This document shows, in pieces, positions 1-27,946 of a stretch of DNA of 64,000 bases. How positions within the stretch are numbered: position 1 is the stretch's first letter; the number at the start of each line of letters is the position of its first letter. Source of the DNA: Pseudonocardia hierapolitana (lineage in GTDB: Bacteria > Actinomycetota > Actinomycetes > Mycobacteriales > Pseudonocardiaceae); assembly GCF_007994075.1 (NCBI RefSeq), contig NZ_VIWU01000001.1, positions 6,448,001 to 6,512,000 of the forward strand, written 5' to 3'. The notes under the pieces are model-generated. The model was not told the DNA's origin. It was given only the letters and a program-made list of their open reading frames with translations, and did no database searches. The position numbers and the translations under genes are program-made.

Positions 1-2
1 CC

Positions 3-3000
3 GGCTCGGTCGAGCGGCGGTGGACGAGCGGGTCGAGCGTGCGGGTGCTGGCGCGTGTCGCGCTGGTCGTCGTCGTCGTCGCGGTGATGCTGGGCGTGCT
101 GTCCCGATCCGCTTCCGCCGCGGTCGCCGGTGCTGCTCTGCGCGGCTCGGGTGGAGCGGTGGCGGACGTGCTGCTCGCCGCCGGTCCGGTGCTGGCGGTC
201 GTCGGTGTGGTGGCGGCGGTGGCCCTGCGTCGGGTCGGGGCGCTGGCCGCGGATGGCACCGAGCAGGCTGCCGCGCGGGCGCGGAGCGTGCTGGCGCGGG
301 TCGGTGCGTTCCTGGCCGGGGACGGGGTCGGCGTCGCGGCGGTCGTGGCGGCGCCGGTGGTACCGGTGGCCGCGACGGTCCTGTGGGTGACCGGTACGGC
401 GTTGGCGATCTGGGTCCTGTGGTCGTCGGCGGCCGCGTCGGGTGCGCCGTCGTGGGGCGGCTCGTGGTCGACGAGGCTGTGGCGCGTCGGTGGTGTGGCC
501 ACCTCGGCGACGGTGGGTGGGCTGCTCGGCTGGGCCTCGCCGTTCCTGCTCGGTGTGGTGGTCGACGGGATCGGTGCGATGCCGGCGGCGGCCGCACGGG
601 CCTCGGCCGCGGTCGGGGTGGCGGCGGTGGTTCTCGTGGTGGCGCAGCGCGTGCTGCGCAACGCCTTGCGGGGCGGGCTGCTGGTGGCCCAGGTCACGGC
701 TCCGTCGGTGGGGAGTCGTCGGGAGCGGGTCGCCGGGTGGGCGATCGGGCTCGGGCTCGGGGTCGCGGCGGTCCTGACGGCGCCGACGCAGCCGTTGCTC
801 GCGACGGTCGCGTGGGTGGTGCTGGGTGCGGGGCTGTCCGGCTGGGCCGGGTGGCGCGATGCGGGCTCGACCGGGCCGCTGCGGGCCGGCGCCCGGACGC
901 AGCGCTCGGAGCAGCGGGAGGCGGCACCGTCGCGGTCGCTGCGCTGGGCGTTCGGCGTCGCCTCGGGTGTGGCGCTGGGGCTCATCGGGGCCGGCTACCA
1001 GAGCATGGCGGCACTGCTGGGCACGCTGACGATCGTGGACGTCGGGCTGATGGGGACGCTGTCGTTCGGCGGCTTCCTGATCGGTGCGCTGCTGTTCGGG
1101 CCGATGTGGGGCTCGCGCTCGGCCCGTGGGATGGGAACGGTGTTCCTGACCCTGCTGGCCGGTGGGTACGCCGCCTTCGCGGTGGTGGTGGCGTGGGCCT
1201 CGGCCGCGCCGTTGCTGGTGATCGCGGTGACCGTCGGGGTGGGGACCAGCGCCTTCCCGTCGTTGATGGCATTCGTCCAGGGGTGGTTCCGGGAGTCCAA
1301 CCAGGCCCGGTTGGCCGTCGACAAGGGCCTGCGCGTCATCGACAGCGTCAACCCGCTGCTGGGAGCGGCCGCCGGGCTGGTCACCTGGGGTGTATTGGCG
1401 TTCCCCGCCCAGTCGTCGGCAGCGCTCGGGGCGTGGGCGATGGTGGGCACGGCAGTGCTCGCCACCGTGCTCCTGCGGCTGACGATGCGGCAGCAGGTGT
1501 CCGCACCGCGAGGACCGCAGGTGGCGTCGGGGACGAGCGGTCGTCGGGGACCGCTGGGCACGATGGCGGACTCGGTCGGTGCGGTGTGGTCGGCGCTGAG
1601 ATCGGACCGGGCGCTGCGGATCGCCGCGTTCGTGTTCGCCTCCACGGCGTTCATCCAGGGCGCGTTCAACACCGTCTGGCGCATGGCGTTGGACCGCTAC
1701 GGCGTTGCCTCCGACGGCCCGCTGGCCTTCGTGATGAACGGCGCCGTGTTCTTCGCCAACGTCGTGCTGTTCCTGGGTGTGTTCGGTCCCGCCGACATCA
1801 GGAGCCGGCGTGCGCGACTCGCGGGTGAACAGGTCGGCGACCTGCTCGGCGAGGGTGCCGGGAAGTTCTTGATGTGGATCGCCGCCGGGATGGCGGCGAC
1901 CGGGACGGTCGTCCTGCTCACCGCGCTCGTCCCCGTGACCGCGGTGGCGGTGATGGGGGTCGTGGCAGGCAACTTCTTGTTCGTCGTGGCGAACGCCGGT
2001 GTGGGGTTGGGGATCAACGGCTTCGTCGCGACCCGGTTGGGCCCGAAGGCCGCTGCCGGGCTGTCGGCGACGGTCATCACGTCGGCGCTGGCCGGGTTCG
2101 TGGCCCCGGTCGCGGCGTCGTCGGCCTTCGGCGCCGTGGGTTGGGTCGGCGTGGCGGTGCTGACCGGTCTGGCGTCGTGGGTGGGCTGGGCGGCCGCGGT
2201 CCGGCTCGTGACGACGTCGTTCGACGAGTTCGTGTCGCGGGTCCGGCGGAGCGCGCGGGCGTCGGGCGTCGAGTGGGTGACCCGTGCCGTCCGGGCCGCG
2301 GGTGTGGTGGTGGTCCTCAGCGCCGCCGACGCGGTGGTCGCGCTGGCCGGTATCGGCGCGGCGGTCGTCGGTCCGGTGCTGGCGGCGTTGCTGCACCACG
2401 TGTGGACGCGGGGGCCCCCGTGGATGCGTACGGCGATCCGTGTCCTGCTGGTGGCCGCCGTGCTGCTGGTGGTGCTGTCCGGTACGGCGTCGGCCGCGAC
2501 GGCCGTTGGTGCCTCTGCTGTGGTCGCGGGAGGCGCTGCGACCGGTGCCGGGCACGCCGTGACCGATCTGCTGCTCGCAGGCGGGGTGGTCGGGTTCGTG
2601 GTGCTCGCGGCGGTGCGGACGCTGCTGCGGCCGCGGGCGATGCCGCTCACCGGGGATCCGGTTGCCGCTCGGCCGGTCCGCGACGGGCGGGTGCAGGTCG
2701 TCGGGATCGTCGTCGGGCTCGGTGCCGGCGTCGCGACGGCCCTGACGGTGCCGGGCGTGCCGCTGGTCGCGAGCGTCGCGTGGTTCGTGGCCGTGGCGTC
2801 GTCGGGATGGGCCGTGGCACGGGCGGTCGCCGCCGCGGCCGTCCTGTGGGAACCCGGGCCGCGGCGGGCGATGACCGGTGCGGGATCGCAGCGCTCGCCG
2901 CCGGCGACCGTGGAAGGGCTGCACGACGCGGTCGAGGCGCTGCGCGAGCGCGTACCGGGCGGAATCTGGACGCCTGCGCAGGAGCGGCAGCACACAGCGC

Positions 3001-6000
3001 TGTTCGAGGAGCTGGAGCAGCTCCGCGAGGAGGCGAACAGTGTTGGAAGCGCCGCCGATCGGACGCGGGCGCTGGCGGCGGCGTCCGAGGTGCTGGCCGA
3101 GCTCGACCGGTTGCGGCCCGCGGGTCCGCCGGCCCCGCGGTCGACCGACACCGGTGAGTCGCTCACAGCGGCGTCCGCGGCGAGCGCGGCAGGTGGGCCG
3201 TCGCGCCGCGGTGGCGGGGATATGGGCCGCTGGTCGAGGGCCAAGCTCGCCGAGTGGTTGGCGACGCGGTACCGGCAGGGCGAGGCCGTGGTGCTGCCCG
3301 TCGCGGTGCGGAACACGAACGGCGACGTCGTCGGCGTCCTCGACCTGCACCCGGTGCGCGGGATGTCGAGCTGGGTGTTGTTGCGCGTGCTGGGTGTGCA
3401 CGACCTGGTGGCGTTCGCCTGGCGGCACGAGGGGCAGCAGTTGGTGGCGGTGGACGCGGAACTGGCCGCGCGGGTACAGCGTGTTCGGGAGGTCATCGCG
3501 ACCGCTCGGGCGGCCAACAGGAACAGCCAGGCCGACGAGCTCCAGCGGATGCTGGACGGCTGGCTGTTCGACGTGTACGACCACGAGCAGGTGCACTTCA
3601 TCGACCCGAAGGCCCGCCACGACGACCCGGCCTTCGTCGGGCACCTGGTCGTGCGGCACCATCTGCTGGACCAGGCGGTCGTCTTCGCCGAATACCTGGA
3701 CCGGCAGATGACGTTCTCCGCGCTGCCGATGTGGTGGGGCCGCTCGCGGACGGACTCGGCCGCCGCGTCGCTGAAGCGGCTCCTCGCGATCCGGGACCAG
3801 TTGGCCACCGCGGACACCGAGCAGCGCACCGCGCTGCTGGCCGAGATCGCCGACCTGCTTCCCCGTCTCGACGCGTGGCTTGGTCGCGCGACCCAGGTGG
3901 CGCCGGCTCCCGCCCGCGGTCGGACTGCGGCGCGTCACCAGGCATGGGAAGCCGCGGAGGAGGAGTGGGAGCGGCATCCCGCGGCCGAGCTGGGCGAGGC
4001 CGACGCGGCCACGTGGGGTGTGTGGCGGCTCGTCCAGCTGTGGGGGCGCCCCGGGGCCCCGCCGGCCCTGGGCCCGGTCCACCTCTGGGGTATCTCGGCC
4101 GCCGACGTGGTGTCGCTGGTCGAGCGCATGGCCGGCGAGCAGGCGGTCGACGGTGCGCCCGCCTGGTTCGTCCCGCTGGTCGAGCGCTTGGCGGCGCGCG
4201 GCGTGGGCCAACCTGCCGCGGTGGGGGAGGTCGCGGCGTGGCTGGCGCAGCTCGCCGATCACGGCCTGCTGGTCGCGGAGACCACCCGGTCACGTGTGGA
4301 GCGGTACCGGCCGGGTGGTGAGCTGGGTCGGTTGCTGGCGCGGGCGCCTCCCGAGGCGGTGGCGGCGCTGTTGCGCGACCCGCTCGGGGTCGCCGGGGTC
4401 GGACTCGACGGACTTCCGATCGAGCTGCAGGCCGGAGCCATCCTCACGTGGCTGCGCGGCGTGGTGGCGTCCCGGGTCGTGCGCGGTCTGTGGGGGATGC
4501 GAGTCAAGATCGCGTGGGAGCACCGCGCGTATCCCACGGGCCTGCAATCCGTGCTGGCGAGCATCCCGGTGATCGGCCCGTGGCTGACGGGCACGCTCGA
4601 CGTGGTCCAGTTGCTCCACCTGAAGTTCAAGGTCTTCGTCAAGGGCGCGAACGTGTGGCGGAGGGGGGCCCGGGGACGCGCGACGTGTGCGACCTGCGGT
4701 GCCGAGATCGGCCCGCGGGGTCTGCAAGTGGTGACCGACTGGTTCGGCCGGGTCCGGGCGTTCCTCGCCAAGCTGCGCTTCAACCGTGCGTTCACCTCGG
4801 GGTTGCCCTGGATGCACCCCCCGGTCGGACCGGAGTTCGTGTGGAACGGCCTCGAGGTCGGATTCAAGATCAGTTTCGGCAATCTCGGGTCGTTCACCGT
4901 CCTGGACGTCGCCGAGCTGGGTGGCGCGACCATCAACCGCAACCGCGTTGTCGGCGGCTTCCTGGTGGTGCGGGTTTCTTTCCAGGCCTACCTCGGGCCT
5001 CACAGGGTGGATGTCTCCTTCATCGTTTTCATCGTCCCGGGGTGGAAGCCGGAGCAGATGTTCGCGACCCCGCGGGTGACCGGCTTGCAGCGGTTCAACG
5101 TGCCGTTGCGGTTCCTGCGCTGGCTGCGGGTCCACACCCTGGGCCCGTCGATGTGGAAGTTCCGGGAGGCGGTGTCCCAGGTCCAGCTGAGTGCGGGTGT
5201 CGGGCCGCGGGACTCGCTGCTGCCCAACTACTACGAGCACCGCCTCTCGGGGCAGACGCTGGAGGTCCGGCGGCACGGGAAGCCGATCTGGAAGATCGAC
5301 TTGGTGAAGGGCCTGGTCCCGTTGGCGGTCAAGGGTGTGGGCTGGGTCGTCCGGTTCCTCGGAGAGCGCATCGGTCGCCGGGTACCGGCCGTCGTTCGTG
5401 CAGGTGCGCTGGCCGTGTGGCGGTACGTGTGGCGGCAGAGCCTCGCCGAGCGGCGCCGCGCCTACACCCAGCGGCTGCGGGGTCGGGGGCTGCGCCAGCT
5501 GGACAAGGTGATCGACGGCCAGCGCGCCGCGCTGGAGTCGCTGGTCGCCGCGCTGCGGGACGTCGACGCACGCATCGAGGTGATGCGCGATGCGAACGGT
5601 GACCCGGTTGCCGGGGCGGGGCCGGCCTTGGTGTCCGCGGAGGTCGAGCGGGCCCGGTTGGAGCGCTTGCGCGAACAGCTGGTGAAGACGATCGAAACCA
5701 ACTACGCGCGGCACGAGGCCATCGAGGAGGGCCCCGGTTCGGATCGACAGCCGATGATTCCGCCGCCCCCGGTGAATCTGAAGCTGGCACAGTCCCGCGT
5801 CGGACGGCGCGAGGTGGAGTCGGGCACCCTCCCGGGGACCGACTCGGCTCCTGGATCGGGCCGTGTCGGGTTCGAGCTGGTTGACGGCCGGGTGGCGGGG
5901 CGCAGCGATCCCGGGCACCCGGACAGCCCGAACCTCGACGCGATGGCGGCGGCGGTGCGGTCCACCGACGGCAGGATCGTCGCCGCGATCGCCGACGAGC

Positions 6001-9000
6001 AGGGCGTGCACGGACTGTCCATCGCGCAGGTCGCGGCGGAGGCGGCGATGGCCGCGATGCGCGGGGTGCCCATGGGCACCCCCGCCGCGGAGGTCGCTCG
6101 GATCGGCTACGAGGCGGCGGTCGAGGCGACCGCCGGGGCGCACAGTTCGACGACGCTGCTGGTGGTGGTGATCGTCCCGGCCGGTCCGAACGCCGTGGAG
6201 GTGGTGTTCCTCTGGATCGGTGACAGCCGCGGCTACCTGGTGACGCGGCACGACGTCGAGCAGGTCACGACCGACCACACGTGGAGCGTCGCGGAGACCG
6301 TCGAGACGACCCCGTCGCCGGGCGCGGAGCAGTACCTCACCCGTTGGCTCGGTCGTGGTTCCCACCACGAGCCGGGTGTGGAGACCCGCACGCTGACCGG
6401 GCCGGCCACGATCGTGCTGGCCACCGACGAGCTGCACGACTTCTACCCCGACGCCGCAGACCTCGCCGCCGTCGTCCGCGGGGCGCAGGCGCCGGGCGTG
6501 GCCGCGGACGCTCTCATCGACGGGGTCGCCCACCTGGGCAGCGGCAACAAGACGACGATCGTGATCAACATCGGTGGTGCGGGCACCTCTTCCCCTGGTG
6601 CCGTCGGGAAGCGGAAGCCGGACAGCGGCAAGCGCGGTCACGGTGGACCGGTCGCGGACGGCGTGGGCAGCGCGACCGCGCGGGACGAGCTGTCGCCGCG
6701 GATGGCGCGCGTGCGAGACGGTGCGCGGCCGGTCGACGCCGAGGAGTTCCCGAACCTCGCGCGGGCACCGCCGGAGTTGGTCACCCTGGTGCGGATCACC
6801 GACGAGGAGTTGCTCGGTGGTCGGCTGATCGCGTTCGGCTGGCGGCCCGAGGGCGGCGCGCCGGAGGACGGTGTGATCGTGGTGCCGGTGCGGGTGGCCG
6901 CTCTGGCGGACCGGCTGATCGAGCTGGACCCGTCGTTCGCCGAGTGGTGGGTGCGGTTGCTGCGCCACGAGTGGGAGTTCCACCTCGCCGGCGACGAGCA
7001 CACGGGGCACCGGCATGACGGCGATGCCGACCGGCTAGTGCGGGAGCTGCACGAGGCCGAGGAGGCGGTATGGGGGCGGACCAGGACCGAACACCTGCTG
7101 GCGCGGTTGCCGGTGGTCGAGCAGTTGGAGGCGGGCGACGCCGAGCTGTCGGCCCTCAGCGGGCACCCCGGGCACCCCTGGACGGCCAGCGGCGCCCGCG
7201 GGATGCGCGCGCTGGACGGGTTCATCTCAGGGGCTCGGGGAATCGGGGGTTCGGTCCGGGTCGTGTGGCCCTCGACGGACGGGTGGCTCTACACCGACGT
7301 CCGGGTGCTGGCCGCTCTTCGCGCCGGCGCGTTGGATGCGGCAGCCCGCCGGGAGCTGTTCGAGAACACGTTGCTCCAGATATCGGCGTTGAGCATCCCG
7401 GAAGCTGAGGTCGAGCAGGCCGCGCCGTTGCCGGACCTCAGCCCGCTGCGGCACCTGTTCGAGCCGGCCGTCGCCGCGGCGACCGCGCTGCAGCGCGTGC
7501 GTGACGGCTTCGGGCGGTCGGCGTGGCAGGCGCCGGAGCTGGGCAGCGTCGCGCCGCAGACCCTTTCTCGAGTGGTGCGGGTGATCGTGCACGGCGCGGA
7601 TGGGTACGAGCATGTCGGGTCCGGTGTGCTGTGGTCGGCTGATGGTGGCTTCGGTTACGTGCTCACCAACCGGCACGTCGTCATGGACGCGACCGCATCG
7701 TGGGTGGAGGTGTCCACTGCCGCGGGAGTGCGGCGCGTGCGCGGAGTCGTGGCGCCCCGACCCTCGGCTGCGGCGATCGTGTCTTGGTTGATGGGTACTC
7801 GAACCGCGGCAGGTCTGACACGTGACGAGCTCATGCAGGCGGCCGCTGAGGTGGACCTCGCTGTGGTGCGAATCGTCGAGGACCGCGTGCTGCCGTCGTT
7901 GCGACTGGATCTGGATGGTGGCGAGCAGCGGGTCGTGCTGATGGGTTTCCCGTGGCGGCAACTGCCCGTGGAGACCGGCGACCGCGTCGTCCGCGATCTG
8001 CGCACCCGGGCCGAGCACCTGGTCGTCAGCGCAGGACTCGTCGTGGACGCCGACTGGGCTCGCCGGACTCCGGTGCGTCACCTGGACCTGTACTTCGGCG
8101 GGAACCAGTGGTTGGGCCACGGCAACTCGGGCGGGCCACTGATCACCAGGGGGGTGGACGATCGCGGCGTCCGCATCGAAAGGGTGGCGGGCCTATGGCA
8201 GGCCACCGTGCGCGAGACGGCCGGCGGCCGGCGGGCCGAGAGTGCAGTCGGCGCCGAGGCCATCGACGCCTTCCTGCGGGCGAGCGGGCTCGGCTCGGGT
8301 GCGGGGCCGCTCGGTCACCTCACCGACGAGGAGATCGCGTTCGCGACGCAGGCGTTCGCGGCGGTACGCGCTGCGGCGCGGTGGGGCAGCGGGATCGACG
8401 GGTACGGGCCGCGCAGCCGGGGCCCGCCCGGGTTCGGTCGTGACGAGGAGCTGCTCGTCGCCGATCCGGCGGCCGTGGCGGTTGCGCTGCACGAGCGTGG
8501 CGCGACCCCGGAGCAGGTCGGGCGGATCCTCGCGGTTCGGGCGTTCGGTTGGCGCGACGCCGACGGCGTGCTCGTGGTCGCGTTGTTCCCGGACAGCCTC
8601 GCGGAGCTGGAGGGGCTCGGGTTGCTGGAGCTCGTGCTCGAGCACGAGCGGCGGCACGGCGTCGGTGGGTTCGCCAGTGAGGTGGAGCACCTCGCCGACG
8701 TGCAGGCGATCCTGCAGAGGATCCGAGATGCACAGGCCGTCCCGAACACGTACGGAGCAGCCGGTCGTGGTCCCGGCGTGGTCCGCGGCACCGCGATGCC
8801 GTCGAAGCGTGCGGCGTTCAACGCTGCTGGTGCGCCATCACCGGATCGGCGTACCGCGTGGGTCGGTGCGGCCCGAGCGCTGCTGGCGGCCGGCGTCGTC
8901 GCTGCCGGGGCGGCGGGGGTTTCGAACGCTGCCGTGGCGCAGCCGGTCGTGGCGCAGCCGGTCGTGACGGTCGGGGGTGGCAGGCAGGCGACGTCGGTGC

Positions 9001-12000
9001 TACGGGAGCCGGTTGTCCCGGACCCGGTGCGTCGACGCGAGTTCGTCACGGCCCAGTTCGACGACGCGGGTGGAGTGGCGCGAGGGCTTGGTGTCGGCTT
9101 CGCGGAGTTCAACGCGGCCAACGGGCACCGGTTCACCGGGCCGCACCAGCGGATCGGTGGCAGGAAGGTGGTGGCCCCCGAGGACTGGGCGGGCGTCTGG
9201 AGCACCCGGCCGGGGGACTCGTACTGGCTCATCTACATCGTCCGGTTCCGCGACGCCGCCGGGTACGAGCGCGCGGTGAAACGCGACGCCACCCCGAACC
9301 TGATCCACCCGGGCGACGAGCACCGCGTGCGTAAGGCGCCGCCGCGCGAACGCGCGGTGGACGAGCCCCGGACGGACGAGGAGAAGCCGGCGGAGGAACA
9401 GCCCACCCCATCCCCGTCCCCGAGCCCCGCGCCCACCACGGACGAGCCGCCCGCCGTGCGCGGCGTGCCGTGGTTCGTGTTGTTCGGCATCGGGGGCATC
9501 TTGGGCGTGGTCGTGGCCTACCTCGCCGCGCGGTTGTTGCGTGCGCGCGGAGTCGGGGCGGCCGCGATTCGGGTCAGTGCCGGAATCGCATTCAGCGCCG
9601 CGGCCGGGCTGTTCGTGATCGGTGGGGGACCCGTGCAGCTGATCGGGCTGGCCGGGGGTCTGGGTGGGGTTCCGGGTTGGGTCGAGGGTGTCGTGCAGTT
9701 CGGTTACGCCGGGCTGGGTCTCGCGGTGGCCTGGTGGACCGGTCGCAAGGCGGTCCGAGCGGTCAGGGCCGGCGTGTCGCGGTGGCGGGCGCGGGTGCTG
9801 TCGGGGATGTGGCGGCGGGTGCCGGTGGCGGAGCTGCCTGCTGGTGGTTCGGCGGCCGAGCATGCGGGCCCGGTCCTGCTGCTGCGGTTGGTGCTGGGCG
9901 CCGACCGGCGGGATCTGAAGAGGTCGGGGGTGAACCTGTCGCTGCTGCGGCGGGGGAAGTGGGTGCACCGGCCGGGTGATCCGGAGTGGCTGGCGGAACT
10001 AGCGGTGTTCCTGGCCGGCGTGCCCGGCGAGTTGGCGCCGTGGGTGGCTGAGCTGGAAGCGGCCGGCCTGGTCGTGGTGGTGCGGACACGGCGAGGTCGG
10101 GTGGTGCAGGCGAGCGAGATGCTGCGGGACCTGGTGGCTCGTGCGCCGCCGGCCTACGCGGATGCGCTGCTGCGGAACCCGGCCGCCGTACTGGATGACG
10201 ACGAGCTGGCCGGGCGATCAACCGAGGAGCTGGCCGGGACGTTGCGGGCCGGGCTGCGGCGGGCGGTCTCGGATGCGCCGGTCGCCGGTGCCGTGCAGCC
10301 GCGTGGTGGTCGGGCCGGTGTGGCGGGCCGGGTCGGTCGTGCGCTGTCGCGGTGGTGGGACGGGATGCCGATCGAGGTGCACCTGGGTGCTGCGTGGGCG
10401 CGCGTCCAGGCCGGTCGGCTGCTGGCGCCGCTGCGGCGGGTGGCGGAGTGGGCCGCCTCGCGGCCGCGCTGGACGTGGGGCACGGAGAACCGGATCTATC
10501 CCACCGGAGTGCAGGAGTGGTTGGGGCCCCTGGGTGACTACGTGTTGTCGCTGCTGCACCTGAAGCTGGTGCGCAAGGACAAGGAGGGTGCTCTTGCCGA
10601 GGGGCAGCGGTTGACGCTGCGGGAGCGGGTGGTCCGGTGGTGGCGGATCGTGCGGTCCTTGATCTTCAACCGGGCGGCCACGATCGGTCCGCGCCTGGAG
10701 TTCCTCTCCACGGTGACCGAGGTGTCACTGCCGCGGTGGTTGGCACATCTGGGGGTCGAGATGTTCGCCAAGGCCTCCGCGGAGATCGCCGGTGAACTGA
10801 CGGTGCTGGACACGGCCGCGGTGGGCGATCCGTTGACCACGAAGAACGACAACCGGTCGCTGGGTGTGTTCACGCTGGGACGGTTCGAGGGCCGACTGGT
10901 GCTGTGGCGGCTCGTGGGTATGGGTTTCGGCGTGGTGGCGTTCACGACGCCCGGCAAGCAGTTCGTCCTGGTGTCGAAGATGCCCGCGGTGGTCGGGTTC
11001 CACCCGCTGCAGTGGCTGGGCGACTGGGTGTTGGTGCGGGACTGGTCGTCGTGGTCGTGGCGGGTGTTCGAGTTCATCTCGCAGTTCCACCTGTTCCTCG
11101 GGTTCGGACCCGGTGATCCGGAGCTGCCGAACTTCCTCGAGTTCCGGGTGTCGCTGCAGTCGGTGACGGTGGTCTGGCGGGGCAAGCAGGTCAAGCTCGA
11201 CCTGGTCAAGGGCCTCGGGTACCTGCTGCGGTACCTGGGCGAGCGGCTCCTGGGCATCCACCCCCAGCACCCGCCGGGCCGGGTGCAGCGCGGGTTGCGC
11301 CGGTGGGTGCCGGTGGCGGTGCGGGCCTGGCTGCGGGGGCTGCCGGCGCGGAAGGCGGCGCGATCGGCGGCGTACGACCAGGAGAAGAAGACGAAGCTGC
11401 TGGAGCGGCTGGATCAGCTGCTCGCCGGGCAGCTGGATGAGCTGAACTCCGTCCGACAGCGGCTGGTGTTCCTGGAAGGGGTGTTGGCGGACCCGCACGG
11501 TGTGGTGGCGCCGCCGTGGTACGCGTCGCTGTACTCGGTGGCCGGTGTCGCGATGGACCCCCGTGAGCTGCTGGTGGCCGAGATCGGGCGGCTGGAGCGC
11601 CGCCGCGCCGCTCTCATCGAGGCGATCCAGCACAACAAGGAGGTGGCCAACGAGGCGATCGAGTCGTTGACCGCGCACGGCGTGGTCATCCCGGGCACCG
11701 TGGCCGAGCTGGGCCCGGCGACGACGGTGCGGGTCCCGGGTGCGGCCGGGGTGGTGGAATCGGGCCCGGTGGGCAACGGCGGGGACGCGATGCGGCTGCT
11801 GCGCTCGGGCCGCCGGACGGTGGTCATGGTGGCCGACCAGCAGGGTGTGAGCCCGCGTCCGCTGCCGGCCGCGCAGGTCGCGGTCCGGGCCGGGGCGGAG
11901 GCGGTGTCCGCGCAGCCCGGGGGTCTGAGCGGGGTGCGGGTCGGTCGGGCGGTCTACGACGCCGCGGTGGCCGCGACCACCCCGCAGGCGGACTCCACGG

Positions 12001-18000: not shown

Positions 18001-21000
18001 GCGATCCGGAGTGGCTCGCGGTCGTGGCCGGTACTGGCTCACCGGGTCGCCTTCGGGTCGACTGGGCACTCGCCGTGTTGCGGCACGCCGAGTTCCGCCT
18101 GGCCGAATCGAACGGCCCCGAGGTGCCGTCGACCCAGACGTGCTCGAGCTGTGGCGCACCGCTCGATCCGGCCTGGCAGTTCTGCGAGGCGTGCGGCACG
18201 GAGCGCCCGGGTGGGTCGGCGCGCTTGACGGGCGCGGTCGCGCCGGTCGGGCTGGCCGCTGGTGGGCTGTCCGGGGGCGTCCAGCACGGTCTGGAGATTG
18301 CCGCCCAGCTCGGCATGGCCGCCGCGACGATCGCGGCCGCGGTGCTCGCGGTGCAGGCCTTGACCGGGGGCAAGACCGTCCGGGCGCCGCCGTTCGCGGC
18401 CGACGTCCTGCGGTGGCTCGGCGAGCGGCTCCGCGCTGCCGGCCGGGTCGGTCGCGTGATCACTGGTGCCGCCGTCGGTGTCGTTGCGCTCCTGGCGTCG
18501 GGCGCCGGGGCGACCCAGTCCGCAGACGTGCCCGCCGCCCCGGTGGCGGCGGGGCGGAACATCCGGGGTGGGGTGGACGACGCGCTCGCGGCCGGTAGCC
18601 CCGTGCGGCCGGTCTCCGGGAACGAGCCGGTGCTGGGCTCGAAGGTGAGGTTCACCGCGGGCCCCACGGACCGCGCCGGTGAGGTGGCCGCCGCGCTCAT
18701 GGGGCCTGATGGGCGCCCGGTGGGCTTCGCGGCGTTCAACGCCGCGAACGGCAACCGGTTCACCGGGCCCGGCCAGCGGATCGGCGGACGCACTGTGTTC
18801 GCCCCGAAGAACTGGACGGGTGTGTGGATCAGCCAGCGGGGCGACTCGTACTGGCGGATCTACATCGAGCGGTTCCACGACCCGGCCGGGTACCGCCGCG
18901 CCGTGGCCCGCGACGCCACCCCCGACCGGATCCACCCGGGCAACGAGTACCGCGTACGCAAGGCCCCGCCGGTGGAGCCCAGGCCGGAACGGGAGCGGTC
19001 GGGCACGCCGGACGAGGAGCAACCGAAACAGCCCGTCCCGACCCGGACGCCGACACCGACACCGTCGGCCTCGTCACCGGCCCCGACCCGCCCGCCGTCG
19101 GTTCGGGGGACGCCGTGGCCGGTGCTGTTGGGTGTCGCCGGCGCGGTTCTCGTAGTCGTCGCCGCGTTCTTCGGGCTGCGGGCGCTGTGGCGGCACGTTC
19201 CGGTCATCCGCGCTGCGTTCGGTGGCTTGATGGGCGGGATTCGACGCGGGCTGGGCAGCGCCTTCGGGGGTGTTCGGGACGCGGCCGGCGCGGTGTTCAC
19301 GGGTTGGGGCGCGCCGATGGTGCCGGGTCCGGCCCGTGCCGGGCTGCGGGCCGGCTCGGTTGCCGGTGCCGCCGTGGGCCTCGGGATGGCTCTGTCCGGG
19401 GCGGGCACACCGGTGACCCTGACCGGGCTGCTGCTCACGGCTGCGGCGGTCGCGGCCGCGATTCGCGCCTGGTGGGCGCCACGGCAGTCGCGGGCACCGC
19501 CGCGTGAGGTGGTTGCGGCGGCCGGCCGGGCGGTGCGGGCCTGGTTCGAGCAGACGCGCATCGCGCTGGAGGACACCTACGGGTTCCGGTTCCCCGATGC
19601 GTGGCCCTGGGTCGGCCCGGTTCGTGATCACGCCGGTTGGTGGATCACTGCGGCGCGGTTCCAGGTCGGCGCGGCGCGGGCGCGGGTTGCCGCGTGGGTC
19701 GATCTGGCGCGCGAGCTCGCCGGCCGGTGGGCCGCGGTCGCGCGGTTGCAGGTCGCGCTGGCGAGCGGCTGGCTGGGGCGGCTGCGAACCTCGCTGGAGA
19801 TCCGGGTGGGCGAGTGGCGGTACACGCTCACTTGGGAGAACCGGATCTACCCGACCTGGATCCAGACCCTGATCGCCTCGATCCCGGTGGTCGGTCCGTG
19901 GCTCGCGGGTTCGTTCGAGCTATACCAGCTGCTGCACCTGAAGCTGAAGGCGTTCACCAAGACGGCGAAGCTGCGCTACAACCGCGCGTTCACGTCGGTT
20001 CTCCCCTGGATGACCCCGCCGGTCGGGCCCGAGGCCCACGTCGGCTGGTTCGGCGTCGGGCTCAAGGTCAGCGGTGGCAACCTGGGCACGTTCACGGTGC
20101 TGGACCTGGCCGAGCTGGGCGGTACGACCAACAACCGCAACCGGGTGTTCGGGATCTTCCCGATCGGGCGGATCTCGTTCCAGATCTACCTCGGGGACAT
20201 CCGGCTGGACTTCTTCCTGGTGCACTTCGACGTACCCGGAAAGAAGCTCGAGCGCAAACACGCCCCGGCAGAGCTGGTCGGCCGGCAGCGGTTCGACCTG
20301 CCGCGCCGGTTCTGGCGCTGGATCCGGGCGCACGACCTGAGCCCATGGACGTGGAAGCCGTGGGAGTTCCTCTCGCAGACCCAGTTCGGGGTCGGGTTCG
20401 GGCCGCGCAACCCGCTGCTGCCGAACTTCGTCGAGTACCGAGCCTCCGCCCAGGAACTGGAGATCCACCACAAGGACAAGCCGATCTGGGAGGAGCCGTT
20501 CCATCTGGTCCAGCACACGGGCCCGGCGATCGCCGGCCTGCTGGCCCGAGGGATCCAGTTCGTCACCAGGCCCCTGGTTCGGTTGCTCCCCCAGCGATGG
20601 CGAACCGACGCGCGAATCAGGTGGCTCTTGTGGCTGGACATGGTGGCCCAGCGGCGCACGGCCCACGACGCGGTGCTGCGCGGGCGCGCGCTGCGCCAGC
20701 TGGACGCCACGATCAGCCGGCAGCTGTCCTGGCTGCGGCGGGTGCGGCTGTCCCTGATCGACGTGGCGGACCAGCTCGACGCGCTGCGCGCCGGGCGCAC
20801 GGACCCGATCGCGGCCGGCGGCCTGGCCGAGCAGGCCATCCTCACGGCCGAGGCGCGCCGGCGGCGGCTGCGCCACCTCGAGACCCAGCTGACGACCGCG
20901 ATCAACGCCAACAACGCGGCCCGCGGAGCGATCGAGGACGGTCCGGGCAGCAAGCACCGACCGCACGACCCGCCGCTGCCCACCCGGCCGGAGAGCGTCC

Positions 21001-21479: not shown

Positions 21480-21785
21480 CCACCGACCACACCTGGAGCG
21501 CCGCCCACACCGTCGAGGCGCCGCCCGTCGAGAACCCGGTCCAGTACGTCACCCGCTGGATCGGCCGCGGCTCCGGCCACCGGCCCGCCGTGGAGACCCG
21601 CGAGCTGACCGGCGCGGCCACGATCGTGCTGACCACCGACGAGCTGCACGACTTCTACCCTGACGCCGCCGACCTCGGCGCCGTCGTCCGTGCCACCACC
21701 AGCCCCGGCCAGGCCGCCGACCACCTCATCGACCGCGTGCTGACCCAGGGCAGCGGCAACAAGACCGCCGTCGTCATCGAGCTCG
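21064..21785 (+). other. Giant protein: PP2C-like domain 3, interrupted by a frameshift
   Basis: The N-terminal part (FGFDLGRVMAGRTD, NFDAMAGAITAA) is in the first frame and the rest (GRLIAVIADQQG, VWVGDSRGYLV, TTDELHDFYPD, GNKTAVVI) in the frame ending at 27946. By comparison with domains 1 and 4, where a Thr/Ala-Asp-Gly-Arg turn sits here, one base (or four) is missing within 21171-21180. All other motifs are intact. Confidence 0.85.
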
Positions 21786-24700
21786 GCTCCCGTCGGCTCA
21801 CCAGGCCGGTGGACGACGCCGGTGGCCCAGTGGTCATCGGGGAGCCGCTCACCGACGACCAGCGCCGCGAGGTGGCCGCCGTCCTGCGGGCGCAGGCCAG
21901 CCGGCTGACCCCGCTGGACGAGCTGCCGCACCGGATGCCGCGCGGCCCACCGGGCGTGCGGGTTCTGGTGGCAGGCGACGACGTGGCGCTGCCGCACGCG
22001 GACCGGCTGGTCGGGTTCGGCTGGGCCGAGGCCGGGGCGGCGGTGATCACCCGGGTGATGCTGGACGAGATCGCCGGGCACATCGCCGCCGGCCGGCTGG
22101 ACGAGGGCTTCTGGTCGCGGCTGCTGGGGCACGAGCAGGAGTTCCACCTCCACGGTGCCGAGCACACCGGACCGAGGCACGACGCGCACGCCGCCGAGTT
22201 GGCCGGCCTCGTCCTGCTGGCGAGGGTGCGGCGGGAGGCGGCGGACCCGGCAGGCTCCCGGACCACGGACCTGGGGCAGGACGCGCTGCGTCACCTGCGC
22301 GCCGTGGCGGCACTGCTGGCTGACCATCCCGTGCTTCACGTCCTGGGCACGAACCCGATCCCGGTCACTGGTGAGCATCCGACTGCCGCGTACGGGGAGT
22401 ACTTCGGCAACCCCGACTTCCGTGCGTCGGAGGAGGATCGGCGCCGCTACCTGGCGAACCCGCCGATCACCGCCGGCCAGAACGCATCGGCGCACCGCAC
22501 GGTCGACAAGCTGGGCACCCGCATTCCGCGCGCCGACCTGCACGCGGTGGTGGTGTACCTGTCCGCGCTGTACGCGGAACCGAACGCGGCGTTGAGGTCC
22601 GGCGATGCCGAGCAGATCGCTCGTTACGAGGACTTCATCCGGGTCGCGGCCTCCGGGTTCAACCAGCTCGACGCCGTCGACAACACCACGACCTACCGGG
22701 CGATCTGGCTGTCGCAATCCGACATCGTGCGGCTGCGCCACACCCACCCCGTCGGCGGGCTGGTGATCGACCCCGGCTTCGTCAGCACGGAGCTGCCGGA
22801 CCCCGTCCCGGCCGGCGCCGACCCCGTCGCAGGCCTGCGCACCATCTACTACCTCGTGCACCCGGTCACCATCGAGGTCCGCTCGCGCACCGGCCGGAAC
22901 TCCTGGCCGGTGATGCAGGCGATGGCCGGGGGGCGGTTCCACGAGCTGACCTTCATCCCGGGGTCCACCTTCGTGGTCCGTGACCTGCAGGTCACCCGGC
23001 ATGCTTCAGGTGAGTACGGGGCGCACATGGTGTGGGAGGACGTCAGCCACCTGCGCCCCTCGGGTGGGCCACCGCTTCACCGGTTCCATGCCGAGTTGGT
23101 CGGTGACCTCGCCGTGCTGCGCGAACAGATCGCACGGGGAGAGCGAACCGCCGGCTTGCCGCCTGCCGAGGCACGCGACGCACTCGAACTCACCCAGCGG
23201 CTGCTGGCTGCTCACTTCACCGAGCAGTACGCACCCGCGCCCCCGCTGATCGAGAACTGCGCGAACTGCGGCTACCTGCTCGGGCCGGCCGATCGGTTCT
23301 GCGAGGCCTGTGGCACGGAGCGCACGAACGGCGCCGCCGGCTCGGCTGGTCAGGGCGGGGCGGTCGCGGACGGTGTGGATGGCGGCCGGGCCCGCGAGGT
23401 GTTGATGCCGTCGACGCCGGCCCTGGTGGCGGGTGCTCGGCCGTTGCGTGGTGAGGAGTTCCCGCATCTGGCGCGCGGGCCGCCGGAGCTGACCGGCCTG
23501 GTGCGGATCACCGATGAGCGTCCCCTCGGCGGGAAGCTGATCGGCTTCGGTTGGCGGCCCGAGGGTGCCGCACCCGGGGACGGGGTGATCGTGGTCCCGG
23601 CCGCGGTCGCGGCGCTGGTCGACCGGTTGGTCGGCCTCGACGCGGGGTTCGCTGCGTGGTGGGAGCGGTTGCTGCGGCACGAGTGGGAGTTCCACCTGGC
23701 CGGCGACGAGCACACCGGTGATCGGCACGACCAGCACGCCGCGGCGTTGGTGGACGAGTTGCGGGCCGCACCAGGTGAGATCGTCGGTAAGGGGGTGGCA
23801 GCCCGCGCCCTCGCTGCGACGGTCAAGGTGACTGCGGCGGCGGGTGCTCTCGCGCTGGGTGCGTTGCTGACCCCGGCGGCGGGGGCGGTGACGACGCCGA
23901 GCGTGCCCGTGGCCGGCTTCGCACCTGTGAGGCAGCTCGCCGTGCAGCTGTCGGGCGCGGGTGTGCCTCACCTGCGCCCGCGTGACCGGGTGGTGGGGGA
24001 GAAGGTCGGGCTGACCGGGGCTCCGCGCGACACGGTCTCCACCGCGATGGCCGCGCTGCGGGTCGTGGACCGCGACTCCGGTCGGGTGCGCCCGGTGTCG
24101 TTCGCGGAGCTGAACGCGGCCAACGGTGACAGGTTCGACAGCAGGCACGAATCGATCGCCGGGAAGAGGGTGTGGACGCCGGAGAACTGGACCGGCGTCT
24201 GGGTCGCGCAGAGGAACGACCACCTGTGGCGGATCTACGTCGAGCGGTTCGGGGACCGGCAGCGCTTTGTCCGCGCCTACCAGCGGGTCCCCACGCCGGA
24301 TCGGATCTTCGCGGGCAGCAGGCACACGATCGAGAAGGCCACGGTTCTGCTCGAGCCGGAACGCCAGGAGCGGGACCTGCGCGACCCGACCCGAAACGAT
24401 CCGGACCGGGTGGCGGTACCCGAGCCGGACCAAGAGCTGCCGGTCATGCCGGCCCACGAGCGGCCCTCGGTGCGCGGGTCCCCGTGGCCGGTTCTGCTGG
24501 GCATTGCCGGCGCGGTCCTCGGTGCGGCTGCGGTCTTCTTCGGCATCCGGGCGATGCGGCGGCACGGTCCGGTGATCCGCGCCGTGCTCGGTGGCTTGTT
24601 CGGCGGGGTTCGACGCGGGCTGGGCAGCGCCGTCGGGGGTGTTCGGGACGCGGTGGGCGCGGTGTTCCCAGGTTGGGGCGCGCCGATGGTGCCGGGGCCG

Positions 24701-27700
24701 GTCCGTGCCCGGCTGTGGGCGGGCGCGGTCGCGGGTGCCGCTGCGGGCCTCGGGTTGGTGTTGTCGGGTGCAGGACCGCCGGTGGTTCTGGCGGGGGTGC
24801 TGGTCGCGGTGGTGTCGGTGGTGGGTGCGGTCCGGGCCTGGTGGACACCGCGGCAGTCGCGGGCGCCGCCGCGTGCGGTTGCGGCGGCCGGTCGGGCGGT
24901 CCGAGCCTGGTTCGAGCAGACGCGCATCGCGCTGGAGGACACCTACGGGTTCCGGTTCCCCGATCCGCGGTCGTGGGCCGGGCCGGCGCGCGATCTGGCC
25001 GGTTGGTGGTTCGCCGCAGCGCGGGCGCAGGTTGCCGCGTTGGTCGGCGCGGCGCGCGAGCAGGCCGGCTGGTGGATCACAGCAGCGCGGTTCCAGGTCG
25101 CTGCCGGACGGGACCGCGTCCGGGCGGTCGTCGGGGCGCTGCGGGGTTGGAACGTCGAGCTCACCTGGGAACACCGGGCCTACCCGACCGCGGTGCAGTA
25201 CGTCATCGCGTGGATCCCGGTGGTGGGTCCGTGGCTGGCGGGTTCGCTCGATCTCTTCCAGCTGCTGCACCTGAAGTTCAAGGTGTTCACCAGGACCGCC
25301 AAGGTGTGGCAAGGCAAGATCAAGGGCCCTGCTACTTGCCCCACCTGTGGAGCCGAGACCGGGCCGAGTGGGTGGCAGACGGTCGTGGAGTGGTTCGGGC
25401 GCGCCCGGGCCTTCGTGGCGAAGCTGCGCTACAACCGGGCGTTCACCTCGGTGTTCCCCTGGATGACCCCGGCCGCCGGGCCGGAGTTCCACTGGGGCTG
25501 GTTCGGCGTCGGGCTCAAGGTCAGCTACGGCAACCTGGGCAGCTTCACAGTGCTGGATCTGGCCGAGCTGGGCGGCACGACCAACAACCGCAACCGGGTG
25601 CTCGGCTTGTTCCCGGTCGTGCGGGTCTCGCTGCAGATCTACCTCGCGGACTCCGTCCGGCTGGACTTCTTCCTGCTGCACTTCGACGTCCCGGGCAAGA
25701 AGCTGGAGCAGAAGTTCGCCACCCCCCAGCTGACAGGTTGGAACCGGCTCAACGTGCCGTTGCGATTCTGGCGCTGGATCCGGACGCACGACCTCAGCCC
25801 GTGGACGTGGAAGCCGTGGCAGTTCATCTCGCAGTCGCAATGGGGGATCGGGATCGGTCCGCGCGACCCGCTGCTGCCGAACTTCTACGAACACCGCGGT
25901 TCAGCACAGACATTGGAGATCCGCCGGCACGGGAAGCCGGTACGCAAGATCCACATGGTGCAGGACCCGGGTCCGGTGCTGGGCCGGGCGTTGGGCCGAC
26001 TGGCCCACCGGCTTGGTGATCGACTCGGTCGGCGGGTCCCCGCCAGGGTGCGCACCGACGCGCGGATCCTGTGGGCGCTGGTGTGGCGGCGCGATCTGGC
26101 CGAGCGCCGCCGCGCCCACGAGCAGCGGTTGCGGGGGCGTGGCCTGCGGCAGCTGGATGCCGTGATCGCCGCCCAGCTGACCCAGCTGGCCGGGGTGCTT
26201 CGCGACCTGCGCGATGTCGAAGACGTGATCAGGACGTTGAGCGACCGCGCAGGCGACCCGATCCCCGGGGCCGGGCTTGCGCTGACCTCGGCCGATGCCC
26301 GGCGGGCTCTGCTGGAGCGGCTCCGCGACCGCCTGATCGAGACGATCGCCGTCAACCAGGCCCGGCGCGCGGCGATCGAGGAAGGCCCCGGCTCGACCCG
26401 GGAACCGATCACCCCGCCGCCCCCGGTGACGCTGACGCTGCTCCCCGCGCGCACCGAGCGGGCCGGGGTGGTGGAGTCCGGCACGCTGCCGGGCGCATCG
26501 GCGGCTCCTGGCGCGGGGCGGGTCGGGTTCGACCTCGGTGACGTGATGGCCGGGCGCAGCGACCCCGGGCACCCGGACAACCCCAACCTCGACGCGATGG
26601 CCGGGGCCGTCCGCTCCGCCGACGGCCGGATCTTCGCCGCGGTCGCCGACCAGCAGGGCACGCACGGGCCGCACAACGCCCAGATCGCGGTGACCGCCGC
26701 AATCACCGCCGCGCTGGCCGAGGCCCCGGCCACGCCCGCCGAGCAGGTCGTCCGGATGGCGTTCGCGGCCGCCGCCGAGGCCGGCGCCGCAGGGGACAGC
26801 ACAACGACACTCCTGTTGGTGGTCGTCACCCCGACCGGCCCGAACACCGCGTCGGCGGCGTTCGGATGGGTCGGCGACAGCCGCGGCTACCTCATCCGTT
26901 CCGACGTCACCGAGCAGGCCACGAGCGACCACACCTGGAGCGTTGCCGAAGCCGTCGAGATGAACCCGGCGCCGGACCCGGTCCAGTACGTCACCCGCTG
27001 GCTCGGTCGTGGCCGCGGCCACCCGGCTGACGTGGAGACGCGCGAGCTGACCGAGCCGAGCACCATCGTGCTGACCACCGACGAACTGCACGACTTCTAC
27101 CCCGACGCCGCCGACCTGGGCGCCGTCATACGCGCCGCGACCAGCCCGGGCCAGGCCGCGGACGACCTCATCGAGCAGGTCGCCCACCTGGGCAGCGGCA
27201 ACAAGAGCACCATCGTCATCCGACTCGACCAGCCGATGCCCGGCACGGGCACCGGAACCGGCGGCGCCACCGGCTCGGCGGCCGATCGCGGGGGCGCGTA
27301 CCACGCAGACGGTGGGCCGGTCGCGGATGGTGTGGACAGCGCCGCCGCGCGCGACGAGCTGCTCCCGCTGATGCCGGCCGTCGTGGCGGACGCGCCGCCG
27401 ATCCGTGCCGAGGAGTTCCCGCACCTGGCCCGAGGGCCGCCGGGGCTGGTGAACATGGTGCGGATCACCGACGAGGACCTCCTCGACGGCCGGTTGATCG
27501 GTTTCGGCTGGCGGCCCGAGGGTGCCGTCCCCGAGGAGGGGGTGATCCTGGTTCCGGCTCGGGTCGCGTCGCTGGTCGACCGGTTGATCGGGCAGGAGCC
27601 GGCATTCGCCGTGTGGTGGGAGCGGTTCCTGCGCCACGAGTGGGACTTCCACCTTGCCGGCGCCGAACACACCGGGCACCGCCACGACCGCAACGCCGCC

Positions 27701-27946
27701 GCGCTCGCCGAACAGCTGCGGGCCCGCTACGAGCAGCTGCGCGACGCGGACCCGGCCCGGACCGCGCTGCGGAGGGATCTGGAGGAGGCGGACCGCGAGC
27801 TCACCGAGCAGGCGAGAACCGCCCCGCACCAGTTGTTGCGGTGGTCCTCGATGCGACGGCGGTCCCGATGTCGATCATCCTCACGCCGAACGCGCTCCAT
27901 GCGCCTCGGAGAGCTGGACTTGGCGATCGGTCAAGTTCCGCCCTGA
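21172..27946 (+). CDS. Continuation of the giant modular protein after the frameshift
   Basis: This frame continues, with no start codon of its own, from the second half of the PP2C-like domain broken at 21171-21180. It carries the rest of that domain, an HEQEFH module, an ADP-ribosyltransferase-like domain, a four-Cys zinc ribbon, two HEW(E/D)FH modules, a third LysM-like/transmembrane cassette, the fourth unknown module and a fourth PP2C-like domain, ending at a TGA at 27946. Every module here has a homologue in the part before the frameshift, so the two parts are one gene. The last 35 or so residues are Arg/Ser-rich and resemble nothing in the other copies, so the true C-terminus may have been lost or shifted near 27840. 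It is convergent with the aldehyde oxidoreductase operon. Whether the frameshift is biological, programmed or a sequencing error cannot be told from the sequence. Confidence 0.88.
21835..22240 (+). other. Giant protein: HExxFH module 6 (HEQEFH)
   Basis: R-G-P-P at 21941-21952 opens this module. HEQEFHLHGAEHTGPRHD, with HEQEFH at 22130-22147, keeps the HExxFH spacing and the trailing EHTG.RHD of the HEWEFH modules. It is the most divergent of that subgroup and lies between the PP2C-like and ADP-ribosyltransferase-like domains. Confidence 0.5.
22340..23055 (+). other. Giant protein: ADP-ribosyltransferase-like domain
   Basis: The layout fits R-S-E clade mono-ADP-ribosyltransferases. TTYRAIWLS could supply the NAD-contacting Arg, followed by GFVSTEL (the S-T-x motif, near 22773-22795) and then GGRFHELTFIPGSTFVV, which parallels the ExE..PG..F.V end of the fold near 22930-22970. 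The first Glu of ExE is Phe here and only the second, catalytic Glu remains. ART domains are common toxin effectors, but here the domain is internal, not C-terminal. Confidence 0.6.
23257..23330 (+). other. Giant protein: zinc ribbon 2
   Basis: CANCGYLLGP and FCEACGTERT repeat the four-Cys pattern of the ribbon at 18137-18215, and the second knuckle is identical between the two. It directly follows the ADP-ribosyltransferase-like domain, as ribbon 1 follows the methyltransferase-like segment, suggesting ribbons mark the end of effector-like inserts. Confidence 0.8.
23425..23785 (+). other. Giant protein: HExxFH module 7 (HEWEFH)
   Basis: Opens with GEEFPHLAR-G-P-P-EL (R-G-P-P at 23474-23485) and ends HEWEFHLAGDEHTG.RHD (HEWEFH at 23678-23695). 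Closely similar to the modules at 6730-7060 and 27405-27720. Confidence 0.5.
23800..24935 (+). other. Giant protein: signal-like helix, LysM-like segment 3, stalk, membrane segments
   Basis: Third envelope-loop cassette: a hydrophobic Ala-rich helix ending in AVTTP, then NAANGDRF, a NDHLWRIY core and TPDRIFAGSRHTI, which is the most degenerate of the three LysM-like endings. A charged stalk and hydrophobic helices to about 24840 follow. R-A-P-P at 24860-24871 comes directly after the last helix, in the same place as in cassette 2. Confidence 0.55.
25150..26425 (+). repeat. Giant protein: repeated unknown module, copy 4
   Basis: It has WEHRAYPTA, IPVVGPWLAGS, the CPTCGAE pair (CxxC, like copy 1), YNRAFTS with PWMTP, GNLGSFTVLDLAELGG with NRNRV, GPRDPLLPNFYEHR and RGRGLRQLD. 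The C-terminal part continues into IEEGPGS and a Pro-rich linker shared with copy 1. Confidence 0.8.
26521..27228 (+). other. Giant protein: PP2C-like phosphatase domain 4
   Basis: It has NLDAMAGAV, AVADQQG, STTTLLLVV, WVGDSRGYLI, SDHTWS, YVTRWLG, TTDELHDFYPD and GNKSTIVI. As in domains 1 and 3, the glycines after the second Asp and the terminal DN Asp are replaced, a consistent deviation that suggests a shared altered metal site rather than random decay. Confidence 0.75.
27405..27725 (+). other. Giant protein: HExxFH module 8 (HEWDFH)
   Basis: Opens with AEEFPHLAR-G-P-P-GLV (R-G-P-P at 27431-27442) and ends HEWDFHLAGAEHTGHRHD (HEWDFH at 27635-27652). It is the last recognisable module; a short charged helix and an atypical Arg/Ser-rich tail follow to the stop at 27946. 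Confidence 0.5.

Follow-up and report, generated by a model that had tools for sequence, protein, structure and literature searches.

Giant mosaic proteins of Pseudonocardia that may be exported and cut at R[G/A/S]PP junctions

A 64,000-nucleotide stretch of the Pseudonocardia hierapolitana genome (hereafter the window; positions 6,448,001–6,512,000 of the 8.86-Mb single-contig genome) was analyzed together with a further 100 kb to its left. It carries part of a plus-strand gene that encodes about 14,000 residues and belongs to a family of giants, which our searches found only in Pseudonocardia. These proteins are mosaics of enzyme and membrane cassettes, they are nearly free of cysteine past their leader, and a tetrapeptide, R[G/A/S]PP, recurs between their cassettes. 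We read the gene as encoding an exported, recombining multi-enzyme precursor whose R[G/A/S]PP-separated cassettes would be cut apart and used against or with other cells, a reading that we hold tentatively, at a little short of an even chance. The leader, consisting of a signal peptide, a charged spacer, Cys-rich repeats, a DUF4781 core and, in about half of the sequences compared, a SecA-like part, would carry the chain out of the cytoplasm. The variable array behind it would supply PP2C, small zincin-like, trypsin-like and ADP-ribosyltransferase (ART)-like cassettes along with other enzyme and membrane cassettes. Cutting at the R[G/A/S]PP junctions, for which the giant's protease modules themselves are the likeliest agents, would free several small enzymes to act at the cell surface or in neighboring cells. 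Recombination would swap and duplicate cassettes, leaving each strain with its own set.

A bolder version is clearly more doubtful: that the giants are exported arms stores of up to about 58,000 residues and dozens of enzymes, that a dedicated protease cuts them at R[G/A/S]PP, and that their cysteines were purged for survival during export. The polyprotein strategy is familiar mainly from viruses, and no earlier system of bacterial polyproteins that share a general junction code is known to us. If the proposal holds, bacteria would use polyproteins with such a code, and chains of 10,000 to 58,000 residues would raise questions of translation, export, and folding. Cut or not, some of these chains are very long for bacterial proteins, at 58,239 codons in the longest frame checked, compared with the 39,678-residue giant of the Omnitrophota bacterium V. 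archaeovorus reported in the part of PMC10066038 drawn on here.

Extent of the gene and distribution of the family

An earlier note, made from the window alone, had described a single giant modular gene that begins beyond the window. In window coordinates, with negative values to the left, plus-strand frame 0 lacks a stop from -14409 to 21479 (11,962 codons). The G+C content at third codon positions (GC3) is high from about -13,800 onward, and its coding signal extends over the length of the gene. Extension to the left bears out the distant start, which is probably the TTG at -14166, about 14.2 kb outside the window and behind GAAGGAG. From this codon, the N-terminus reads as a hydrophobic stretch ending in ATPASAAA, a signal-peptide-like pattern as judged by inspection rather than by a predictor. 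A similar start is seen in 8 of the 15 compared sequences, some of which lack their own N-terminus. Just upstream of the giant, a short open reading frame (ORF) about 15.3–15.0 kb left of the window resembles, by eye, the C-terminal end of a phage integrase.

The long coding region, from about -14.2 kb to about 27.8 kb, thus stands as claimed, but it is not one open frame. Frame 0 (1..21176 in the window) gives way to frame 2 (21176..27830) at about 21147–21180, inside a PP2C domain (switch region 21141..21200), and the two sides were handled separately as part A (frame 0) and part B (frame 2). Frame 2 remains open until a stop at 27946. The residues just before this stop look out of frame because the GC3 signal fades there and because part B's only unpaired cysteine lies in that tail. 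The window copy may be a decaying gene or may contain a sequencing error at the switch or the 3′ tail, and it may no longer be functional. What is seen is one break and a probably damaged 3′ end rather than a frame broken at many places. Homologues are likewise not always split into ordinary genes, since related genomes hold stop-free frames of 10,000 to 58,239 codons.

A profile of the Cys-rich N-terminal domain matches 23 of 62 Pseudonocardia genomes. Among 390 family-wide genomes of 46 genera, the same 23 genomes match and the 45 other genera give none; these family-wide searches, like the class-wide ones below, scored 4 to 11 candidates per genome. By hand count of distinct frames, 62 of about 93 frames with this domain reach at least 5,000 codons, and the shorter ones lie partly at contig ends of draft genomes. 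Ten genomes, from several sequencing projects, hold stop-free frames of at least 10,000 codons with the domain (also counted by hand), and five giant frames beyond the window giant's own were checked by script over their full length and found stop-free. The largest are in P. eucalypti DSM 45351, where minus-strand stop-free frames of 58,239 codons (815160-989876) and 40,947 codons (68607-191447) occur on a 1.05-Mb contig (contig 3; 1,053,233 bp) that carries nine of the genome's eleven frames of at least 5,000 codons with the Cys-rich domain. The window genome itself has six places with the domain. A second giant there (4045526-4111201; 21,891 codons, stop-free) contains long internal duplications and ends in DUF3990 and NUDIX, and the members at 3817868, 3415627, and 6739879 have short frames of 3,607, 3,060, and 2,818 codons and are perhaps truncated giants.

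Other probes return the same genus. A profile of a module that recurs in the window giant, here called module U, matches 8 of the 62 Pseudonocardia genomes, including stop-free frames of 13,878, 12,689, 14,950, and 10,474 codons; in the class it finds only the window genome among 394 (4 candidates scored per genome). A profile of the HExxFH module yields, beyond the window genome, one marginal match (E 8.5e-4) among the 394 class genomes. A pattern scan of one genome per species for 84,980 species, which depends on short conserved patterns and which distant relatives would escape, gave 29 confirmed loci, all in Pseudonocardia. A first scan of this type with module U confirmed no locus. Of 1,257 candidates scored in the protein database, 8 match the leader; six of these are labelled Pseudonocardia, one is labelled "Actinomycetes bacterium," and one has no source name. 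Family members are deposited as fragments or under names like SecA, LysM, or DUF4781 protein. Apart from its first residue, a public P. alaniniphila protein of 4,513 residues is identical to the C-terminal stretch of the same length in one giant; the databases therefore contain giant fragments.

The leader follows one order: signal segment, charged low-complexity spacer, Cys-rich repeats, DUF4781 core. In the window giant all of these lie left of the window, starting at -14166, and the core is matched by DUF4781 at E 9e-8. The paired cysteines of the repeats are invariant in seven aligned N-terminal domains. A SecA-like part follows the leader in 8 of 15 compared sequences and in 6 of 8 public proteins, as judged from their listed Pfam domains. 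It is fuller in two scanned homologues (DEAD, cross-linking, and P-loop domains), whereas the window giant has the C-terminal half only. Past the leader, the array varies among giants, even within one genome. In one relative or another, rhomboid, cation-efflux, LysM, trypsin, NUDIX, FHA, MFS, and amidoligase matches pass the cut-off, and MarR and ART-type matches fall short of it. In a scan of 10 C-termini, two have ART-type or DUF3990 matches (ADPrib_exo_Tox at E 8e-4, under the cut-off, and DUF3990 at E 5e-12, both in paralogues), three have nothing, and the others end in trypsin, FHA, MFS, amidoligase with a sigma-like match, or PP2C.

The junction motif and the loss of cysteine

RGPP is strongly overrepresented in the giants. 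In a pool of 18 sequences (263,994 residues), it occurs 133 times against 7.51 expected, and 60 Markov simulations gave a mean of 7.9 and a maximum of 16. RAPP (50 against 9.8), RSPP (15 against 4.4), and HGPP (8 against 2.2) are also enriched, and the other one-letter variants tested in the pool lie at 0 to 1.8 times expectation. By a simple score, RGPP ranked first of all tetrapeptides in a first set of seven sequences (41 against 2.5). The same held for a second set of eight ORFs (42 against 2.8); one of these ORFs lay on the wrong strand, contributed 2 of the 42, and was later excluded. Eight public proteins, among them one of TRM90224 that may be shared with the second set, contain 26 RGPP against 1.2 expected; here one low-complexity word ranked higher. 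A control of 193 crudely called ordinary ORFs of the window genome (89,380 residues) contained 5 RGPP against 3.3 expected, one of them within a giant.

The placement of the motif points to boundaries. Full flanks are available for 132 RGPP sites, and at 101 of them the two flanks are dissimilar; at these 101, a membrane-like segment lies within 40 residues upstream in 29 and downstream in 25, compared with 9% for random points. When R[GA]PP sites were considered (183, of which 101 were informative), breaks in homology lay close to them more often than to random positions (0.545 against 0.341 ± 0.042, with 0.473 the highest value in 200 random draws). The anchor motif could be read in 25 of 29 loci, and 23 of these retain the site in the Cys-rich linker; it is also retained by all 11 anchor-bearing members of 26 giant or public sequences, a set that overlaps the 29 loci. 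In nine sequences, 14 of 22 HE..[FH]H motifs have R[GAS]PP within 130 residues upstream. The rows of the HExxFH alignment were mostly cut at RGPP by hand, and RGPP at the row start is not independent.

All six arginine codons and all glycine and proline codons occur at R[GA]PP sites. This variety led us to reject a DNA-level origin of RGPP. CCA encodes the first proline at 23% of the 183 sites, whereas Pro-Pro pairs elsewhere use it in 15% of cases and its overall share is 4%; the excess is thus partly general to Pro-Pro pairs. RGPP behaves as a protein-level junction signal would, and the simplest reading is that R[G/A/S]PP junctions are probably processing sites. The small residue after arginine, together with the preference for Pro-Pro, suggests a specific protease. 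A specific recurring motif stands between functional units, as in a polyprotein, with some sites lying off unit boundaries.

When the giants past their leader are divided into 2,000-residue chunks, the median cysteine content of the 105 chunks is 0 per 1000 residues, compared with 7.3 per 1000 in 215 control ORFs (86,270 residues). The six chunks richest in cysteine all begin at residue 2,600, a point at which the leader with its Cys-rich repeats may not yet have ended. In the window giant, where alone pairing was checked, every cysteine of part A past residue 2,926 and of part B lies in a CxxC or CxxxC pair, except one in the out-of-frame tail. The near-absence of cysteine fits life outside the cytoplasm as support, not proof. 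Nonsynonymous-to-synonymous substitution ratios (dN/dS) of 0.40 to 0.74 in five module pairs show that the modules are constrained yet fast-changing.

Competing explanations and known systems

Several observations weigh against an exported and processed precursor. Some modules are cytosolic in type (SecA, NUDIX, winged helix), ART-type or DUF3990 matches end just 2 of the 10 scanned chains, and the window copy has its frame break. High-scoring segment pairs run across many R[GA]PP sites, with 217 spanning and 316 ending, and some sites fall in the charged spacer or the Cys-rich leader, where no enzyme would be freed. Nine crudely picked secreted-like control ORFs have 7.9 cysteines per 1000 residues and are not Cys-poor; lack of cysteine is therefore no general mark of export in this species. 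No immunity gene was recognized beside the giants at 12 loci with up to five genes per side, a comparison that immunity genes unique to one locus would escape.

The alternative that survives best, although unlikely, is an uncut giant surface or stalk protein that serves as an adhesion or attack machine, with RGPP as a rigid linker or docking peptide. Its size and the 77 membrane-like stretches above threshold in parts A and B, many of them overlapping, would suit such a role, and the Cys-rich N-terminal repeats could build a stalk. The comparison is with the Omnitrophota giant ORFs, whose membrane-helix proteins are proposed as coats or adhesins in the part of PMC10066038 drawn on here. No adhesin family was matched, however, in Pfam scans of the window giant and parts of its relatives. 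Moreover, a linker needs a composition rather than an exact tetrapeptide, and most one-letter variants of RGPP lie near expectation.

An improbable alternative places the protein in the cytoplasm or membrane as a multi-enzyme machine for the producer's own envelope, with roles in signaling, secretion, and proteolysis. The SecA, PP2C, FHA, rhomboid, cation-efflux, LysM, NUDIX, and winged-helix modules of the family would fit this role, and the secreted-like controls mean that the cysteine purge need not indicate export. The signal-peptide-like start and the almost Cys-free enzyme part argue otherwise, as do the fast turnover of modules within the genus and the presence of the family in 23 of 62 genomes, which are unlike housekeeping machinery.

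More improbable still is a recombining cassette store, in which in-frame module exchange keeps the frame open and RGPP is a relic of a DNA exchange site. The mosaic structure, the duplicates, the sites near homology breakpoints, and the broken window copy would all be expected of it. Free codon choice and the enrichment of RAPP and RSPP point instead to protein-level selection; the dN/dS values indicate some constraint, and the Cys-rich linker site is kept in nearly all readable loci. An assembly or gene-calling artefact, which the single frame change in the window copy might suggest, is barely credible given the ten genomes from several sequencing projects, the GC3 signal along the window giant, and the five further frames checked in full.

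The exported, processed precursor can also be set beside known systems. Viral and other polyproteins repeat short motifs between domains and encode protease domains. The Pseudonocardia giants likewise have a recurring inter-domain motif and protease-like domains with catalytic motifs; they differ in that the gene is cellular, the motif is R[GAS]PP, and the cutting is a proposal from sequence. Polymorphic toxins share a secretion leader (here signal-peptide-like), a hydrophobic segment (here in DUF4781), variable modules and, at 2 of 10 scanned C-termini, ART-type or DUF3990 domains. Where a polymorphic toxin has one toxin domain at its C-terminus, a giant has many enzymes along its chain, and no adjacent immunity gene was recognized at the loci compared. 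Omnitrophota, another phylum, have giants as well, including a reported one of 85,804 residues. Their giants resemble those described here in their single frames, which run to tens of thousands of codons, in their many membrane segments, and in their poor annotation, according to the part of PMC10066038 drawn on; the Pseudonocardia giants differ in having enzyme cassettes and a junction motif and in matching no adhesin family.

A further comparison is with the giant multi-toxin actinobacterial proteins of Zhang et al. (2012; PMC3482391), the longest of which has 13,652 residues (SACTE_5178); statements on them rest on part of that article. The earlier note's view that no actinobacterial system of this kind had been described was thus too strong, although the architecture does differ. 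Both groups are actinobacterial, exceed 10,000 residues, combine several enzyme domains per chain, and have a proposed role in conflict. The R-S-E type ART domains of the Zhang giants may have counterparts in Pseudonocardia, where the matches are weak in the window and, in paralogues, reach E 8e-4 (under cut-off) for ADPrib_exo_Tox and E 5e-12 for DUF3990. The Zhang giants contain peptidases of lethal-factor type, caspases, and MCF1-SHE. No such domain turned up in the Pfam and NCBIfam matches of the Pseudonocardia giants, where remote forms may escape. SecA, PP2C arrays, the Cys-rich leader, and RGPP set the latter apart in a comparison made by description only. In a survey of huge proteins (PMC11573180, part of the article), nonribosomal peptide synthetase domains are the commonest in bacterial ones and Actinobacteria are the largest contributor. 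Among the matches listed in a search of the published literature (apart from subscription journals and preprints), there is no account of the Pseudonocardia giants or their architecture, and none of an RGPP processing site. The polyprotein and the toxin platform, both raised in the earlier note, are the suggestions that the later evidence favors.

Modules of the window giant and its surroundings

Pfam and NCBIfam scans name few modules of the window giant; all features below are on the plus strand. A block at 24..2819, previously taken for an MFS-like transporter, is a run of hydrophobic, membrane-like segments that matches no Pfam family at E ≤ 1, and MFS was found at one homologue's C-terminus. 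The block includes an RGPP junction between membrane-like segments (2409..2420), and an RSPP site follows at 2892..2903. The recurring cassettes that had been proposed are confirmed by self-comparison: the cassettes at 4476-7149 and 25127-27803 are 59% alike, those at 18531-21174 and 23897-26618 are 54% alike, and a 137-residue stretch is duplicated at 96% identity (15741..16151 and 17106..17516).

Eight HExxH/HExxFH motifs, four PP2C-like domains, and half a SecA are all present as listed earlier. When the two sequences were simulated 200 times with a Markov model, the metallopeptidase-like motifs averaged 0.85 with a maximum of 4. The first module of this type has HExxH at 3582..3596, a second HExxH lies at 8643..8657, and the duplicated stretch contains HELAH at 16053 (copy 1, with CxxxC) and 17418 (copy 2). 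HExxFH modules 1 to 4 occupy 6762..7118, 21941..22297, 23474..23830, and 27431..27787, the last being the final recognizable module; the first starts with RAPP and the others with RGPP. An M48-like stretch scores 23.0 bits (cut-off 20.3). The model of HExxFH module 3 has a mean predicted local distance difference test score (pLDDT) of 89, and a Foldseek search of the HExxFH module against the PDB gave no match at E ≤ 0.001.

Module U has four copies (4476..5930, 10437..11813, 19761..21140, and 25127..26470). Its AlphaFold model is poor (mean pLDDT 63.7), being strand-rich first and then formed of long helices at low confidence; Foldseek gave no match at E ≤ 0.001, and a PDB profile search gave nothing under E 0.25. 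The PP2C-like domains lie at 5931..6580, 11814..12462, 21141..21788 (split by the frame switch), and 26585..27220, and their Stp1-like NCBIfam matches are far under cut-off. In what we take to be the metal-binding motifs, GDSR is present in all four, and the first-Asp pattern in three; at the last DN motif, three copies have GNK and the second copy has DDK.

Both trypsin-like domains have properly placed H, D, and S motifs. The second (16320..17000; H 16368, D 16554, S 16836) is clear, matching Trypsin_2 at E 4e-11. The first (7600..8300; H 7665, D 7851, S 8121) is weak: its NCBIfam match, of HtrA type, has E 8e-4 and falls far short of the cut-off, and a sequence search of the PDB gave no match. 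The SecA C-terminal nucleotide-binding half (12975..13820; PF21090, E 5.9e-33) contains motifs V and VI, as in SecA; unlike SecA, the window copy does not have both halves, as the N-terminal ATPase half was not found in it and the family score is 150 against a cut-off of 800 bits. Zinc ribbons, LysM-like loops, and an ART-like domain had also been listed; they are present at sub-cut-off, by-eye, or weak level. The zinc ribbons (18129..18200, with two CxxC pairs, and 23258..23330) score 24.0 bits, just under the cut-off of 27. Three LysM-like loops were assigned by eye (9099..9400, followed by membrane-like segments; 18726..19000; 24101..24400), and Pfam reports LysM only in homologues. The ART-like domain (22331..23245) has no Pfam match and five PDB matches, best E 0.073, which are presumably all ART-fold proteins. 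Further junctions are RGPP at 8418..8429, 12798..12809, and 15606..15617, the latter two behind membrane-like segments, and RAPP at 4341..4352, 10140..10151, 18381..18392, 19491..19502, and 24860..24871, the last two also behind such segments.

Comparison of the neighbors at the same 12 loci gave 11 cross-locus pairs and no family in more than three loci; the neighbor genes were called crudely as ORFs, not always in the correct frame, and some pairs link giant to giant. In TRM90224, a small ORF right after a giant resembles, by eye, a detached HExxFH-type module. Two similar minus-strand proteins of about 1,650 residues, one at 33871-38832 in the window and the other at about 10.6–15.6 kb of a second stretch, look by eye like a kinase at the start and like a histidine kinase at the end.

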